DNA of 64,000 nt. Source: Ferroacidibacillus organovorans (GTDB lineage Bacteria > Bacillota > Bacilli > Alicyclobacillales > SLC66). The position numbers were made by a program, and so were the translations under genes. The number at the start of each line of letters is the position of its first letter. Positions within the stretch are counted from its first letter, which is position 1. The stretch is from assembly GCF_001642725.1 (NCBI RefSeq), contig NZ_LSUQ01000003.1:62001-126000 (forward strand), in the 5' to 3' direction. The notes beneath the pieces were generated by a model, which saw only the letters and a list, made by a program, of their open reading frames with translations, was not told the origin of the DNA and searched no databases. Of the stretch, positions 17,145-44,020 are shown in pieces.

Positions 17145-17182
17145 AATTGCAGAGAGGTAAAGCTCTCTGCTTACAATTGAAA

Positions 17183-17320
17183 ATCACACGCTTAATTTCG
17201 ATGCAGATCGGAAGCGGGGGAACCAATCTTTTGGGGTGTATCTGGCTTGCGCCAGACGGAGAGCTCTTTCTCCCAACCCGACAGCTAACCTCGTCAGCGG
17301 AAAGAGAGGTGACAGGTTAT
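17183..17320 (+). ncRNA. ydaO/yuaA-type c-di-AMP riboswitch
   Basis: Two conserved blocks of the ydaO class are present: GGGGGAACCAA with TTTTGGGGTG about 17217-17238, and AACCCGACAGCTAACCTCGT (17275-17294) followed by CAGCGGAAAGAGAGG. Pairs around GGCTTGCGCC and GAGAGCTCTTTCTC fit the internal helices. The class binds cyclic di-AMP and usually turns off cell-wall or osmolyte genes. An intrinsic terminator (17352-17379) follows before the next gene, so the expected logic is termination when c-di-AMP is high. Boundaries are approximate. Confidence 0.85.
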
Positions 17321-35725: not shown

Positions 35726-35754
35726 TTTACAAAGCGACATACGCGTGATAAAGT
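35726..35754 (+). promoter_or_regulatory. promoter of the TPP-riboswitch operon
   Basis: A -35 TTTACA (35726-35731), 17-base spacer and -10 TAAAGT (35749-35754), placing the start site about 15 bases before the aptamer. Confidence 0.5.
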
Positions 35755-35773
35755 TTAGTTGAAAACCTATCGT

Positions 35774-35870
35774 AAGGCGCTAGGGGTGCCATTGGCTGAG
35801 AGGCGAAATGAACGTTTTGCCAACCCTTCAGAACTCGATCTGGGTCATACCAGCGGGAGGAAGTGCCGTA
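35774..35870 (+). ncRNA. TPP (THI-box) riboswitch
   Basis: All conserved THI blocks are present in order: AGGGGTGCC, GGCTGAGAGG, AACCCTTCAGAACTCGATCTG and GGTCATACCAGCGGGAGGAA. The closing P1 helix is GGCGCT with AGTGCC. It binds thiamine pyrophosphate and controls the downstream thiamine/HMP transporter operon. A terminator follows, so this is an OFF switch acting on transcription. Confidence 0.96.
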
Positions 35871-35876
35871 TTCCGG

Positions 35877-35928
35877 AGATGCTTCTGCCAATTGCGCCTT
35901 GAATGCGATTGGAGAGATGCGTCTTTTT
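35877..35928 (+). terminator. expression-platform terminator of the TPP riboswitch
   Basis: AGATGC (35877-35882) pairs with GCGTCT (35919-35924), with an inner helix CCAAT (35888-35892) and ATTGG (35908-35912), followed by TTTTT. It ends 52 bases before ykoE. Confidence 0.7.
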
Positions 35929-35979
35929 GTTTGCGCGCGTTCTGACATGCCCAAGCGATGGTCAAAAGGGGGCATTTTG

Positions 35980-36546
35980 ATGTGGAAGTTGCGGGATATT
36001 GTCGTCGCCGCCATTCTGTCGGTGGTCTGCGGAGCAATTTATTTGAGCTGGGATCTTCTTACGGGGATTTTTGCGGCGGCCTGGTCACCCATTGCGTACG
36101 GACTCCTAAACGGTCTTTGGTGGCTCGCGGCGGGTCTTGTCCCTTATATCATACGGCGGCCTGGCGCTGCATTTTTTGCGGAGGTTGTCAGCGCCTTTTG
36201 TGAATTTGCGTTTGGCAGCCCCTATAAATGGGGAGCTGTCATTTCCGGGCTGCTGCAAGGCGCTGGGGCGGAACTCGGCTTTGCGATGGGAGGCTGGAAA
36301 AAGTACAATACAGCATTCATGATGCTCTCAGGCGCGCTCGCGGGCGTCGGGAATAGTGTTCAATACTATTTTCAATACGGTGGGAACAAGGTTGCGCCGG
36401 ATCTTTTCATTGGCTACGTCGTCACGACGATGATCAGCGGTGCGTTCGTAGGCGGTCTCGTGCCAAAGTGGATCGGGGACGCGCTTAAACGAACAGGCAG
36501 TCTGCGCAACTTCGAATTGGGAAAAAGCGGGCAGGCTGGTCGCTGA
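35980..36546 (+). CDS. ykoE: YkoE-type substrate component of a thiamine/HMP ECF transporter
   Basis: 188 residues with five to six membrane helices. MWKLRDIVVAAILSVVCGAIYLSWD is the YkoE start pattern, and NGLWWLAAGLVPYIIRRPGAAFFAEVVSA is highly characteristic. The TPP riboswitch upstream supports thiamine or hydroxymethylpyrimidine as ligand. AGGGGG is 7 bases before the ATG; the longer reading frame reaches into the riboswitch and is not used. Its stop overlaps the start of the fused ATPase/T-component gene by one base (TGATG). Confidence 0.92.
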   Translation: MWKLRDIVVAAILSVVCGAIYLSWDLLTGIFAAAWSPIAYGLLNGLWWLAAGLVPYIIRRPGAAFFAEVVSAFCEFAFGSPYKWGAVISGLLQGAGAELGFAMGGWKKYNTAFMMLSGALAGVGNSVQYYFQYGGNKVAPDLFIGYVVTTMISGAFVGGLVPKWIGDALKRTGSLRNFELGKSGQAGR

Positions 36547-39011
36547 TGCAAACGGATCGGGCACTGCCACTGCATGCGTTGGCAGAAGAAGAGGGCGTCA
36601 CGGATCTTGATCGAGGGATGAGTATGGGGGGCATCATCGAGGAGTGCCCTGACGTGCTCGTTTCACTTGACTGTGTGACCGTGCAGTATGAGGGGGCTGA
36701 TCGCCCCGCATTGAACGATGTGTCGCTGACGATCAAAAAGGGCGAGGCTGTCTTATTGCTTGGACCCAGTGGATGTGGAAAAAGCACAGTTGCGCGCCTC
36801 CTGTCGGGACTGATTCCCCGGGCGATGGAGGCGAGTGTCCAGGGACGTGTCACGCGCGCGCCTGAACTCGCGCGAATGGGTGCGATCGGGTACGTCTTTC
36901 AGGATCCTGACGCCCAGTTTTGCATGATTGAACAGGATGATGAGATCGCGTTTGGACTGGAGAATCAGAGAATTTCTCAAGCGGATATGCTTGCGCGCAT
37001 TCAGGAACAGCTTCAGAGAATGGGCCTCCCTGATCTTCCGCATGTAAAACATGATCGATACTCTGGCGGAATGAAACAGAAACTTGCGTTGGCGAGCGCC
37101 TTGGCGATGCAACCAGAGTGGCTTATTTGTGATGAACCGACGGCGAATCTCGACCCACAGGCCACTGGAATGGTTTTTGACGAGTTGATGCGCGTTCGTG
37201 AGCGTGGACAGAGCTTGCTTTTAATTGAACATAAATTTGATCGCATTCTCCCCGCGATGGATCGCGTTATTCTCTTTGACCAAGTCGGTCGCATTCTTCA
37301 TCAAGGAACGCCTGGCGAGATGATGGAAAACTGGTGGGAGGAGATGCTTCGAATTGGCGTGATTGCGCCTTGGAAGGCGCGACCGTTTCAATGCAACGAA
37401 GTACGGCTTGGTCAGAAAGTGGTCTTGGAAGAACCAAAAATGGCGGAGCTTAAGAGCCAGGGTGACGCGTTCGCACTGAAAAACGTCGAGGTGACGTACC
37501 GCAAGACGCCTGTTTTGCGTGTCGACTCGCTGCACATCAAGGCGGGCAGTTTCACTGCGATTGTCGGCCCGAACGGGGCGGGCAAGACGACACTGCTTCA
37601 GGCGATGGCAGGCCTGATTTCGCATCGAGGTGGGCATTTGGCGCGCTTTGGGGCACACTCGCATAAGGCGGAGCATGACGCGCGCTTGGCGTATAGTTTC
37701 CAAAATCCAGAGTATCAGTTCGTGTATGGTCGCGTCGTGGATGAGTTAGGCAATCGCGTTCAGGCAGACGAGACTGATCCTAAACTTCACGAGTTGTTGA
37801 CGCGTTTCGGGCTCGATGGGTATGAGGATGCCAATCCTTTTGAGCTGAGTCAGGGTCAAAAGAGGCGTTTGAGCGTCGCTTCTATGCTCAGAGAACCGCG
37901 CGCCGCCTACCTGCTTGATGAGCCGACGTTTGGACAGGATGCAAAGACGCAGCAGGTACTCTTAGAACAGCTGGAGACGCTCCATCGCGATGGACGAACC
38001 ATTGTCCTGACGACGCACGATATGGACCTCGTCAGACAATACGCGACACAGGTGGTCGTTGTCATCGCTGGTGAAGTGGTCGCATCATGCGCGCCAGAGC
38101 GTTTGTTCGCAGATGAAGAACTGATGAAGCGGGCGCATCTGCTCGATGACCAGGCGGATAGCCGCTTGCTTTTGGAGGTATGGAATGGGCGCTCACGGGG
38201 CGAGCGTGCAGATTGGGCGACCGCAAAGAACACTGTGGCGACGCCGTGGGTTGAGCGCCCGCGCAGTGCGCCCGCGCGCTCGCTCAATCCGACGATGCAA
38301 CTGGTTATGGTACTCATGGTCATGATCATCGGAGTTTTTGCGAACAATCTTCACCAAGCGATTGCTCTCTTTCTTCTCCCGGTCGCGCTGATGCTACTTG
38401 TCGCGCGTCTGACACCGTGGCAGATTCTCAAGCGACTGTCCCCATTTCTCGGCTTTTATCTGCTCTACGTCTGGACGCCGACCGCCTACGGCCCTGTCGC
38501 GCCGCATGAGCCGACGATTCACTTTCTATGGATGCATCCGACGGTTGCGGGCTTTAAAAATGGCTTGGTGCTCGCGTTTCGCATGCTCTCCGCCGTGTGC
38601 TTTGGCGTGCTGTTTGCATCGGAGGTTGACGTCACCGACTTGATCATCAGCCTCTGCCAGAACGTCCGCGTCTCGCCGCGCTTTGCTTACGGAACACTCG
38701 CCGGCATTCGCGTGATTCCGTTGTTTCAAACAGAGTGGGTAAAGCTTCGCCAGGCGCGGGCGCTGCGCGGAAAAGAGGGCCGTATTGCAGTGCTGCGCCC
38801 GATTCACTATGCGTTGCCGCTGCTCACGCAAGCGATTCGCATGAGTGAGCGCGTCGCCATCGCGATGGAGGCGCGCGGGTTTTATGGCGAGGTGGCGATG
38901 AAAGCGACGGCGCGTAGCTATTATCGGATCATTCCGTTTCGCGCGCGCGATGTGCTCTATCCGCTCGCCATCGCGCTGCTTGCGGTTAGTCTGATTGTCA
39001 TCTTTCAATGA
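36546..39011 (+). CDS. fused YkoD-YkoC: double ATPase plus EcfT membrane component
   Basis: 821 residues. ABC domain 1 (about 38-275) has GPSGCGKST, YSGGMKQKLA and LICDEPTANLD. ABC domain 2 (about 305-520) has GPNGAGKTT, LSQGQKRRLS and YLLDEPTFGQD. A linker of about 60 residues leads to an EcfT domain (about 575-821) with several helices and the coupling motifs RQARALRGKEG and AMEARGFYG. In Bacillus subtilis YkoD and YkoC are separate genes; here one polypeptide joins both, giving a two-gene transporter with YkoE. The substrate is inferred from the TPP riboswitch. The first 35 residues are an extra acidic head. Confidence 0.92.
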   Translation: MQTDRALPLHALAEEEGVTDLDRGMSMGGIIEECPDVLVSLDCVTVQYEGADRPALNDVSLTIKKGEAVLLLGPSGCGKSTVARLLSGLIPRAMEASVQGRVTRAPELARMGAIGYVFQDPDAQFCMIEQDDEIAFGLENQRISQADMLARIQEQLQRMGLPDLPHVKHDRYSGGMKQKLALASALAMQPEWLICDEPTANLDPQATGMVFDELMRVRERGQSLLLIEHKFDRILPAMDRVILFDQVGRILHQGTPGEMMENWWEEMLRIGVIAPWKARPFQCNEVRLGQKVVLEEPKMAELKSQGDAFALKNVEVTYRKTPVLRVDSLHIKAGSFTAIVGPNGAGKTTLLQAMAGLISHRGGHLARFGAHSHKAEHDARLAYSFQNPEYQFVYGRVVDELGNRVQADETDPKLHELLTRFGLDGYEDANPFELSQGQKRRLSVASMLREPRAAYLLDEPTFGQDAKTQQVLLEQLETLHRDGRTIVLTTHDMDLVRQYATQVVVVIAGEVVASCAPERLFADEELMKRAHLLDDQADSRLLLEVWNGRSRGERADWATAKNTVATPWVERPRSAPARSLNPTMQLVMVLMVMIIGVFANNLHQAIALFLLPVALMLLVARLTPWQILKRLSPFLGFYLLYVWTPTAYGPVAPHEPTIHFLWMHPTVAGFKNGLVLAFRMLSAVCFGVLFASEVDVTDLIISLCQNVRVSPRFAYGTLAGIRVIPLFQTEWVKLRQARALRGKEGRIAVLRPIHYALPLLTQAIRMSERVAIAMEARGFYGEVAMKATARSYYRIIPFRARDVLYPLAIALLAVSLIVIFQ

Positions 39012-39039
39012 TGGGTGAGGAGAGAGGGGATCTGTTGAC

Positions 39040-39684
39040 GTGAAACAGCGCTACTACGACCTATCGATGCCGCTTTGTGAAAAAACGGCGCCATTTCCTT
39101 CGGATACGCCGTTTTCACGCGTCGAGACGATGCGTATGACGGACGGTGATGTCTGCAATGTGACGGCGATCACGATGAGCGTTCACGTTGGCACGCATGT
39201 CGATGCGCCTTATCACTATGATGAGCAAGGAATGCGCATCGATGAGGTGGCGCTTGATCGCTATATGGGGAAGGCGCACGTGTTTACCGTGATGTCACGC
39301 GGGGGCGACGGGGTTCACGTCATCTCGGCGAATGACGTGCAGCGACTGGACATCAGCGCAGAGCGCGTGCTCCTGCGAACGCTGACATACCCAGAGTATG
39401 ATGCGTTTCACGCAAACTTTGCGTCGATTGCGCCTGACGCGATCGACGTTTTGGCAGAGCGCGGCGTGCGTTTGATCGGGGTGGATACTCCATCGGTCGA
39501 TGAGGCGACAAGCAAAACGCTCCCCGCGCATGCGCGCTGTCGGGAGCGTGGAATCCTTATTCTTGAAAATCTGAGATTAGAGCACGTGCCAGACGGCATC
39601 TATGAATTGATCGCATTGCCGCTGCGCATCATCGGAGGCGACGCTTCACCTGTGCGCGCCATATTGCGTGAGTGTTCCGAGTGA
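39040..39684 (+). CDS. cyclase-family (kynurenine formamidase-like) metal hydrolase
   Basis: 214 residues. The hallmark motif HVGTHVDAPYHY (family HxGTHxDxPxH) binds metal. YYDLSMPLCEKTAPFPSDTPF, VDTPSVDEATSKTLPAH and LIALPLRIIGGDASPVRAIL fit KynB/cyclase (PF04199) proteins. KynB hydrolyses N-formylkynurenine. It sits 28 bases after the thiamine transporter gene, in the same orientation, inside a TPP-regulated operon, and no other kynurenine gene is nearby. A role on a formylated pyrimidine from degraded thiamine is therefore possible but unproven. The GTG start has a weakly placed GAGGGGA. Confidence 0.82.
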   Translation: MKQRYYDLSMPLCEKTAPFPSDTPFSRVETMRMTDGDVCNVTAITMSVHVGTHVDAPYHYDEQGMRIDEVALDRYMGKAHVFTVMSRGGDGVHVISANDVQRLDISAERVLLRTLTYPEYDAFHANFASIAPDAIDVLAERGVRLIGVDTPSVDEATSKTLPAHARCRERGILILENLRLEHVPDGIYELIALPLRIIGGDASPVRAILRECSE

Positions 39685-40380: not shown

Positions 40381-42564
40381 ATGAGCAGAGCACAGCCTGC
40401 ACTTTTTTCTTATGCCACAAAAGGTGGCACCACCGTTTTTCGAACGGTTCGAAACGTCCCGGTTATAGGGGCGCTTGATCCCATACTCGCCGCACTGGAC
40501 ACGAGGCGCGGCGCACTTTTCTCGAGCAGCTACGAGTATCCCGGTCGCTATACGCGGTGGGAATTCGGATTTGTCGACCCTCCTCTCCTTCTTGAATCTA
40601 AAGAGCGAACGTGCACACTCCGTGCGCTTAATGAGCGCGGAATCCGCATGTTGCCACTTCTAGCAGAAATTTTACATGGACTTGAAGCTGTGTCAGACCT
40701 TGCGCATGACACACGCGAGTTGGTCGCCACGATCGCAAACCCTGCGCGTTTTTTTCCGGAAGAGGAGCGCAGCCAACAACCTTCTGTATTTTCTGTGATC
40801 CGCGCGATACAGGATGCTTTCTTTTCTCCTGAAGATGAACACCTCGGCTTTTATGGCGCATTTGGTTACGATTTGGTTTTTCAATTTGAAGAAATCGAAA
40901 AACACCAAACGCGCGAATCAGCGCAGTCTGATCTGATTCTCTATCTACCGGATCACCTTGTGGTCGTCGATCACCGTTTGGATCACGCGATGGAGATCAA
41001 GTATGATTTTCTAAACGGTGACGTCGATACGCGGGGAATCATCGGTGACGAAACCCCGTCTCAACGAAAGCGTGCGCGCGTGCGCGAGGTTCTTCAGGGA
41101 AGTGACCATGCTGCTGGTCAATACGCGGCGCAAGTCAGGCGCGCGACGGAGTATTTTCGACGCGGCGATCTGTTTGAGGTCGTCCCTGGCCAAACGTTGT
41201 CGGAGCCGTGTGATGTGTCACCAGCGGAACTTTTCACACGTCTCAAACAAAAAAATCCCAGCCCTTATGGCTTTCTTATCAATCTTGGCCGTGAGCATTT
41301 GATCGGCGCGTCTCCGGAGATGTACGTGCGAGTTGAAGGGCGACGCGTTGAAACCTGCCCGATCTCAGGAACCATCAAACGTGGGCGTAACCCGCTTGAA
41401 GATGCGGATAACATTCGTGAATTGCTCAACTCGCAAAAGGATGAGTCGGAGCTCACCATGTGCACGGATGTGGATCGCAACGACAAATCGCGCATCTGTG
41501 AACCCGGCAGCGTGCGCGTGATCGGTCGCCGTCAGATTGAAATGTACTCGCGTGTGATTCACACCGTCGATCACGTCGAGGGAATGCTGCGCGACGGATA
41601 CGATGCGATCGACGCGTTTCTCACGCATATGTGGGCGGTGACCGTTACGGGTGCACCGAAGCGTGCGGCGATTCAATTTCTTGAAGAATTCGAGTTGTCA
41701 CCGCGGCGCTGGTACGGTGGGGCGGTCGGTAAACTCGGGTTTAACGGCGATATGAATACGGGACTCACACTTCGCACGATACGTCTCGAAAACGGGGTTG
41801 CCGAGGTGCGCGTCGGCGCTACGCTGCTCGCTGACTCGGATCCGGAGGAAGAAGAACGCGAGACGCGGACGAAAGCGTCGGCACTTCTAGACGCAATTCG
41901 CGATCAAAAGGCTCTGCCAATCACGTCGGCGCGATATTCAAACGTCGGCGCAGGACTCAACGTCCTTTTGGTTGACCATCAAGATTCGTTTGTGCATACG
42001 CTCGCCAACTACATTCGCCAAACGGGCGCGAACGTGGTGACGCTGCGGGCGGGTTTTGCTGAAGCGATGTTGGATGAGATTGCGCCAGACCTCGTTGTAC
42101 TCTCACCGGGGCCAGGGGCGCCCTCTGATTTTCATTTGAGCGACACGCTGTCTGCGGTGTGTAAACGTCAATTGCCTGTGTTTGGAGTGTGTCTTGGCCT
42201 GCAAGGTATCGTCGAATACTTTGGTGGAACACTCGATGTGCTTGAGGAGCCGATGCACGGGAAGCCGTCGCAGATTCAGGTCATCGCGCCGGATGCGCTG
42301 TACGACGGACTGCCCGACGCATTTCAGGTCGGGCGCTATCACTCGCTCTATGCGCGCGATGATTCGCTGCCGAGCAGTTTGGTTGTTACTGCGCGTTCGG
42401 AAGATGGCGTGATCATGAGTGTGAGTCACCGCGACTTGCCAATTGTCGCGGTGCAGTACCATCCGGAGTCAATTTTGACGATGGCGGATGATCACGGTTT
42501 GCGCTTGATTGAGAATGCGGTGTATGCGCTCAAGCGGGCGGTTGAACCTGCACTAAAATCGTAA
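40381..42564 (+). CDS. trpEG: anthranilate synthase, fused TrpE-TrpG
   Basis: 727 residues. The TrpE part (about 1-510) starts with the rhizobial-type YATKGGTTVFR and SSSYEYPGRYTRW, carries the tryptophan feedback motif LLES (70-73) and chorismate-site motifs PYGFLINLG, GASPEMYVRV, CPISGTIKRG and DVDRNDKSRICEPGSV. The TrpG part (about 520-727) has Cys604 in GVCLGLQGI and the His/Glu of QYHPES. The fusion makes anthranilate from chorismate and glutamine. It is known mainly from alphaproteobacteria and some others, and is unusual in Bacillota, which use separate TrpE and TrpG/PabA. No other trp gene is nearby. GAGGAG lies upstream of the ATG. Confidence 0.92.
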   Translation: MSRAQPALFSYATKGGTTVFRTVRNVPVIGALDPILAALDTRRGALFSSSYEYPGRYTRWEFGFVDPPLLLESKERTCTLRALNERGIRMLPLLAEILHGLEAVSDLAHDTRELVATIANPARFFPEEERSQQPSVFSVIRAIQDAFFSPEDEHLGFYGAFGYDLVFQFEEIEKHQTRESAQSDLILYLPDHLVVVDHRLDHAMEIKYDFLNGDVDTRGIIGDETPSQRKRARVREVLQGSDHAAGQYAAQVRRATEYFRRGDLFEVVPGQTLSEPCDVSPAELFTRLKQKNPSPYGFLINLGREHLIGASPEMYVRVEGRRVETCPISGTIKRGRNPLEDADNIRELLNSQKDESELTMCTDVDRNDKSRICEPGSVRVIGRRQIEMYSRVIHTVDHVEGMLRDGYDAIDAFLTHMWAVTVTGAPKRAAIQFLEEFELSPRRWYGGAVGKLGFNGDMNTGLTLRTIRLENGVAEVRVGATLLADSDPEEEERETRTKASALLDAIRDQKALPITSARYSNVGAGLNVLLVDHQDSFVHTLANYIRQTGANVVTLRAGFAEAMLDEIAPDLVVLSPGPGAPSDFHLSDTLSAVCKRQLPVFGVCLGLQGIVEYFGGTLDVLEEPMHGKPSQIQVIAPDALYDGLPDAFQVGRYHSLYARDDSLPSSLVVTARSEDGVIMSVSHRDLPIVAVQYHPESILTMADDHGLRLIENAVYALKRAVEPALKS

Positions 42565-42628: not shown

Positions 42629-43819
42629 TCAGGTACGCACGGGACGAACGTCGCGGCCGAGGGTGAGGACGACGAGAAGTCCGATGAACGTGATCACAAA
42701 AAAGATGGAGAAGACAACGCTAAAGCTGGTTTGACTGGCGATCAACGCGCCGACGAGAAACGGTGCGAGAAAACCCCCGATTTTTCCAAACCCCATCGCA
42801 AATCCGAGACCTGTACCGCGAACGTCCTCGTCATACTGTTCAGCGGAAAAAATGTAGGTTGCGCCCCACGCGCCGAGGTTGCTGAAATTGAGGAGCAGGC
42901 CAAAGATCAGAAGTTGCGAGGTGCCTGTCGCCAAACCGAACAGAAGTGCAGATACTGCGCTCACGAGTGAAAAAAGGATCAGCGTCCACTTGCGACCGAT
43001 GCGCTCGACGAGCCACGCTGCGCTCAGATAGCCGGGTAACTGCGCCAAAGCCATGATGAGAACATAGCCGAAACTGTGAATCAGGGAGAACCCTTTTAAT
43101 GTTAGGACGCTTGGCAGCCAGATGAACATGCCGTAATACGCGAAGTTTGCGGTGAACCAAATCACCCACAGCACGATCGTGCGCGAGCGAAGCGGACGCG
43201 AGTAGAGCCGACCCAGGTTCGCCGTCAGGCTTACGGGCGCCTTTCGCGACTGAAAGTGGGGCGTCTCAGGAAGCGCCCTGCGCAAGTAGAGCGTGTAGAG
43301 TGCGGGCAAGACGGTGATGGCGAATGCGGCGCGAAAGCCAAAGGTTGGAATGATCAAAAAGCCGATCAATGCGGCGACGACTGCGCCGACGGCCCAGAAG
43401 GATTCGAGATAGACAGTGCGCTTTCCGCGCTCTTCTGGCGGCGATGATTCTAAAACGTACGCTGTTGCGACAGGCAATTCGCCGCCGAGGCCGAGACCGG
43501 TAAAAAATCGCAGGACGAGCAATATGCCGATGCCCCCGGCAAGCGCGCTGAGTCCGCTTGCCATCGAGTACAACACGATGGTGATGAGAAACGCGCGCTT
43601 CCTCCCAATGCGATCGGAGAGAAGTCCAACGACCGCCGAGCCGATGGCCATGCCGATCAGGGTGATGCTGCTGAGCCAACCGGCCTCGATCGGCTGGATG
43701 TGCCATGTGACAAAGAGTGCGGCGATGATGAATCCCAAAAGGCCAACGTCCATGGAGTCAAACAGCATTCCGATGCCGCTTGCAAATAACAGACGTCGTG
43801 CCGACGGCGCCGCCTTCAT
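42629..43819 (-). CDS. MFS transporter, sugar/aromatic-acid:proton symporter type
   Basis: 396 residues and about twelve helices. It shows FDSMDVGLLGFIIAAL in TM1, GLLSDRIGRKRAF in loop 2-3 and FFTGLGLGGELPVATAYVLESSPPEERGKR, the pattern of the AAHS/SV2-like branch of MFS transporters. Substrates in that branch are aromatic acids, sugars and other carboxylates. A longer reading frame reaches 44128, but the ATG at 43819 has GGGAGG at 7 bases and starts right before TM1. No catabolic gene nearby hints at a substrate. Confidence 0.85.
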   Translation of the reverse strand: MKAAPSARRLLFASGIGMLFDSMDVGLLGFIIAALFVTWHIQPIEAGWLSSITLIGMAIGSAVVGLLSDRIGRKRAFLITIVLYSMASGLSALAGGIGILLVLRFFTGLGLGGELPVATAYVLESSPPEERGKRTVYLESFWAVGAVVAALIGFLIIPTFGFRAAFAITVLPALYTLYLRRALPETPHFQSRKAPVSLTANLGRLYSRPLRSRTIVLWVIWFTANFAYYGMFIWLPSVLTLKGFSLIHSFGYVLIMALAQLPGYLSAAWLVERIGRKWTLILFSLVSAVSALLFGLATGTSQLLIFGLLLNFSNLGAWGATYIFSAEQYDEDVRGTGLGFAMGFGKIGGFLAPFLVGALIASQTSFSVVFSIFFVITFIGLLVVLTLGRDVRPVRT

Positions 43820-44020
43820 GAAGGTACCTCCCCATCCATTCAATTCGCCTAGTTTGCGGGCTCCTATCCCATATGCGCGTAAGCTTCTGTTGGTGACACG
43901 AAGTGCGGCAATCACGCAGTGTTTGAACCAAGGCTGCATGGATTGCATAGGCTGAGTGTAACCGTGCCGGGTTTCGCCTGGCATTGAACATAGGGAAGAG
44001 GACATGCGGGAGGGATTGTG

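Follow-up and report, generated by a model that had tools for sequence, protein, structure and literature searches.

In Ferroacidibacillus organovorans, an operon for thiamine uptake headed by a TPP riboswitch ends with a cyclase-family gene whose product is, by its sequence, a formamidase of the KynB family that has lost its tie to tryptophan breakdown, an arrangement found in one family of the order. A literature search returned no paper connecting TPP riboswitches with enzymes of the KynB type. We analysed the gene within a 64,000-nt stretch of contig NZ_LSUQ01000003.1 (the window) and in related genomes. The operon, the riboswitch, the conserved gene order, the catalytic residues, the lack of a tryptophan dioxygenase and purifying selection form the observed basis of our preferred reading, held tentatively and at rather less than even confidence, that the cyclase may serve as an accessory formamidase whose substrate is an N-formyl compound related to thiamine; the tie of the substrate to thiamine is one that we infer.

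A KynB-type gene ends a TPP-riboswitch operon

The riboswitch, a hairpin, ykoE, ykoDC and the cyclase gene lie in the same orientation as a single unit. The TPP riboswitch aptamer (THI element, 35772–35878, +) scores 63.6 bits with Rfam RF00059, against a gathering score of 54.3, and runs into a terminator-type hairpin with a U-run (35875–35928, +), the probable expression platform. The hairpin itself (35875–35926, 52 nt) has a folding energy of −23.4 kcal/mol and a z-score of −3.28, with 0 of 200 shuffles as stable, and is closed directly 3′ of the aptamer by a run of five U at 35924–35928. Because the aptamer is followed by a stable hairpin and a U-run, switching is likely to proceed by transcription termination. 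When tested for membership of a TPP riboswitch regulon, the genes thus have both an aptamer above the gathering score and an expression platform upstream. A candidate sigma-70 promoter lies 18 bases ahead of the riboswitch (35726–35754, +; TTTACA-17-TAAAGT, with TG ahead of the −10), a consensus match only, from a scan that gave 4 matches in the region where 2.1 are expected. The window also holds a c-di-AMP (ydaO/yuaA) riboswitch, at 17179–17313 (92.9 bits).

The first gene, ykoE (35980–36546, +), encodes the S component of a thiamine/HMP ECF transporter (PF09819, 117.3 bits, E 5.7e-34; match to the YkoE structure 5edl, E 3.8e-29). It shares one base with a ykoD–ykoC fusion of 821 aa (36546–39011, +), which carries two PF00005 (ABC_tran) domains and one PF02361 domain (CbiQ-type T component). 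A spacer of 28 bp (39012–39039, +) with a purine-rich, ribosome-binding-like stretch at 39017–39029 separates the fusion from the cyclase gene (39040–39684, +; GTG start, 214 aa; PF04199, E 3.3e-24; TIGR03035). An earlier note on this DNA had placed the cyclase 28 bases behind ykoDC, with no other start signal, in an operon under a TPP riboswitch. The gap is exact and all genes lie on one strand; the spacer contains no terminator, and a promoter scan of 38600–39040 found no promoter-like site; and the riboswitch is borne out by its score, by the hairpin and by conservation of the operon across genera. The cyclase gene would therefore be co-transcribed with ykoEDC and repressed by TPP.

The unit resembles the thiamine–HMP ECF transporter YkoFEDC/YkoEDC of Bacillus subtilis in TPP control, gene order and pyrimidine-binding residues, but it has ykoD and ykoC fused, lacks YkoF, has altered thiazole contacts and adds the cyclase gene at its 3′ end. 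In B. subtilis YkoE, Trp49, Glu77 and Gln95 hold the pyrimidine of thiamine, and Tyr46 and Asp131 hold the thiazole (PMC5037267). The window protein keeps W49, E77 and Q95 and has Asn in place of Tyr46 and Tyr in place of Asp131; with the pyrimidine contacts kept and the thiazole contacts lost, it fits a pyrimidine substrate. The contact changes are order-wide, which rules out a YkoE specificity tied to the cyclase and counts against a thiamine-related reading of the enzyme.

Catalytic residues are kept and the pocket is altered

The sole NCBIfam match of the cyclase protein is TIGR03035, arylformamidase (KynB), at 222.9 bits, 0.15 bit below the cut-off of 223.05. Its best PDB match is the KynB structure 4cog (E 1.2e-47), and the solved KynBs (4cog, 4cob, 4cz1) match at E 1e-47 to 1e-42, which puts the fold beyond doubt. 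Alignment to B. anthracis KynB, with residue roles from Diaz-Saez et al. 2014 (PMC4243253), shows the Zn ligands His50, His54, Asp56, His161 and Glu173 and the catalytic His60 and Ser149 intact in the window protein and all six of its relatives; the window protein, which is also of KynB length, keeps the supporting Pro148, Asp151 and Asp198 as well. The full KynB active site, with Pro148, Ser149, Asp151 and Asp198, is absent from other PF04199 groups. Since the catalytic set is complete, the cyclase should be a formamidase-type hydrolase: it is a KynB-type formamidase by sequence, as the earlier note had it, with a predicted hydrolase activity.

The protein departs from KynB in its pocket, where Trp20 is replaced by Phe, Val40 by Cys and Gly43 by Thr (Thr/Ser), and in its setting, at the end of a TPP-riboswitch ykoEDC operon rather than in a kyn operon and in a genome without tryptophan dioxygenase. 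The pocket of the three solved KynBs combines an aromatic residue 20 with Val40 and Val42, and Cys takes the place of Val40 in all seven cyclases of the family. Phe or Tyr occupies residue 20 in 17.8% of KynBs, so Phe20 is allowed (PMC4243253). The altered pocket at first seemed unique and a possible proof of a new substrate, but the Phe20/Cys40/Val51 signature, with one or two conservative variants, then appeared in 13 further loci, mostly planctomycete and including one from Candidatus Kuenenia (L055), which also have Ser or Thr at 43. Tryptophan dioxygenase is present in all 13 of those genomes, so the signature alone does not mark a non-kynurenine enzyme. The neighbours of these genes differ from those in the window, most having a divergent kynureninase-like gene directly upstream. 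In two such loci, L058:4796–7063 and L066:4784–8088 (uncultured/planctomycete), the genes for a divergent PLP enzyme resembling kynureninase and for a KynB-like enzyme form a conserved cluster, downstream of which L066 encodes a protein of the RidA type and a HAD hydrolase; in both genomes the dioxygenase is encoded elsewhere, away from the cluster.

In a tree, the family's cyclases join the Bacillota KynBs but fall outside them, with support of 93 for the joint branch and 97 for the KynBs without them; the monophyly of the family's cyclases themselves is not resolved. The cyclase is under purifying selection (dN/dS 0.14–0.20), although the constraint is 3–11 times weaker than on ykoE (0.02–0.05), a difference that we count against the thiamine-related reading.

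The operon is conserved within one family

The cyclase lineage, recognised by scores above 350 bits with the family alignment, where no other group in the order exceeds 232, occurs in 7 of 18 genomes of the family: the window genome (G000) and G001, G007, G010, G011, G015 and G017. Between genera, the cyclases are 49–54% identical. Riboswitch, ykoE, ykoDC and cyclase stand in this order on one strand, with gaps of about 20–75 bases, in the window genome and in G001, G010, G011, G015 and G017, the last being Sulfoacidibacillus thermotolerans; this recurrence argues that the unit is no chance arrangement. The coupling is not strict, and each part occurs without the other: in G007 the cyclase sits in the same surroundings, with no ykoE in the genome and no TPP riboswitch nearby, and in G009 and G016 riboswitch, ykoE and ykoDC are present but the cyclase is missing. 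Moreover, the wider region is syntenic throughout the family, which makes adjacency weaker evidence of joint function, and the conserved order may reflect plain vertical inheritance.

The earlier note had suggested surveying genomes for cyclases beside YkoE and TPP riboswitches. Such cyclases were found in the six family genomes and nowhere outside the family in the searches run: none lay within 6 kb among the best 80 loci of an 84,980-genome collection, and none in the 1.5-kb flanks of matches in a 398-genome sample of the phylum. Elsewhere in the order, ykoE–ykoDC has no constant third gene.

A functional link to the anthranilate synthase at 40381–42564 was considered and rejected, as the two adjoin only in the window genus. 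An MFS transporter of the aromatic acid/H+ symport type (42629–43828, −), which we take to resemble the niacin transporter NiaP, remains in the vicinity of the cyclase or of ykoDC in the family genomes. In several family genomes a selenocysteine tRNA gene, of which none was found in the window, lies near the ykoE/cyclase region, at L041:13173–13265, L045:13591–13683, L043:13506–13598 and L044:7318–7410.

Possible roles of the enzyme

On our preferred reading, the cyclase would be a binuclear-metal formamidase from an ancient side branch of the bacterial KynBs, a member of which became the last gene of the ykoE–ykoDC operon in the Sulfoacidibacillus thermotolerans family. When TPP is low, the terminator would open and transporter and enzyme would be made together. 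The enzyme would most likely hydrolyse an N-formyl compound, or a similar small amide, entering with or arising from thiamine and its pyrimidine; this would be an accessory step of scavenging or clean-up, and a formamide from thiamine breakdown is a plausible, unproven substrate. We count in favour of this reading the order conserved in six genomes, the catalytic set complete in all seven cyclases, the tryptophan-pathway genes described below, the low dN/dS, the kept pyrimidine contacts of YkoE and the lack of an apparent YlmB-type M20 gene. Besides the points already named, family-wide synteny, the exceptions G007, G009 and G016 and the pocket type shared with dioxygenase-bearing planctomycetes count against it.

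KynB is the enzyme that takes off a formyl group when tryptophan is broken down, and the closest characterised relatives of the cyclase are KynBs, whose catalytic residues it keeps in full. The enzyme could thus be a plain KynB that acts, without a dioxygenase, on N-formylkynurenine from outside or from oxidised tryptophan, its place in the operon being inherited and not functional. The same pocket in the 13 dioxygenase-bearing genomes, beside a kynureninase-like neighbour, speaks for this, as does a kynureninase domain encoded in the window genome. However, searches with two models found tryptophan dioxygenase in 0 of the 18 family genomes, which rules out an ordinary kyn operon and leaves N-formylkynurenine no obvious substrate. 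In the sister family, all seven genomes with a KynB above 200 bits have the dioxygenase, and the KynBs of these genomes carry Trp20 and Val40; in six, the two genes share one contig and lie about 1–4.5 kb apart. Kynureninase is missing from five of the seven cyclase carriers, occurring in the window genome and G015, and so does not track the cyclase; together with the missing dioxygenase, this leaves an ordinary kynurenine-pathway role unsupported. The lineage also lies outside the group of KynBs that Bacillota encode in kyn operons, and TPP control would make no sense for such an enzyme. We consider a plain KynB doubtful, though a serious contender; were it correct, it would warn against reading a kynurenine pathway into the TIGR03035 name. 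The kynureninase of the window genome (L038:7923–10175, −; G000:C16) is fused behind an aldo-keto reductase domain in one frame of 750 aa.

Unlikely, in our judgement, is a hydrolase that hitch-hikes on the operon and acts on some other small amide or a lactone with no relation to thiamine or tryptophan. The substrates of PF04199 members are diverse, the window genome has a second PF04199 subfamily adjoining zwf, and G007 retains the cyclase without the transporter; yet the full KynB active site, with residues that other PF04199 groups lack, and an operon order kept across several genera both speak against it.

A proposed YlmB replacement and the lack of TenA

YlmB is the deformylase of FAMP, and TenA turns the deformylated product, an aminomethyl-pyrimidine, into HMP. 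The formyl group of FAMP sits on an aliphatic aminomethyl group; the substrates of KynB are aryl formamides. The earlier note had proposed the cyclase as a non-homologous replacement for YlmB, and had taken a ylmB gene elsewhere in the genome as evidence to the contrary. None is apparent: none of the six strongest of eleven M20 matches in the window genome reaches the ArgE/DapE (YlmB-type) cut-off of 217.6 bits, the best scoring 104.5, and it is on this comparison that the absence of YlmB rests. The cyclase, a PF04199 protein, is unrelated in fold to the M20 (ArgE/DapE) metallohydrolase YlmB, and would share with it a possible reaction type, deformylation, and the thiamine context.

That part of the proposal stands, but the partner enzyme does not fit. 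TenA (PF03070) was not found in five of the seven carriers (G000, G001, G007, G010 and G011) and is present in G015 and G017 only, with no complementary distribution of cyclase and TenA. Where TenA is missing, the product of FAMP deformylation cannot reach HMP by the known route, which makes replacement of YlmB in a TenA-dependent pathway unlikely in the window genome; such a replacement could still apply to G015 and G017. A thiC gene under a second TPP riboswitch of the window genome (ThiC named by eye from its sequence) supplies HMP de novo. Overall, despite the TPP-controlled, pyrimidine-binding uptake operon and the formamidase-type enzyme, the lack of TenA, the presence of thiC and the aliphatic formyl group of FAMP make a FAMP deformylase quite improbable.

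On a bolder reading, the TPP-controlled enzyme of KynB type would recover a thiamine breakdown product that carries an N-formyl group, along a previously unseen pathway independent of YlmB and TenA; this we hold to be very improbable. A clear YlmB is absent from many marine organisms (PMC10470507), which raises the question of which enzymes are able to remove the formyl group of FAMP. If the cyclase acts on a thiamine-derived formamide, it would represent a new enzyme family for vitamin B1 salvage.

Finally, the second PF04199 protein of the window genome (L046:4146–4790, −; G000:C21) is 30% identical to the operon cyclase. Its gene shares 4 bases with zwf and faces a gnd-like gene, and zwf adjoins its subfamily in 18 of 22 distinct loci of the order, which makes the protein a candidate non-orthologous 6-phosphogluconolactonase.
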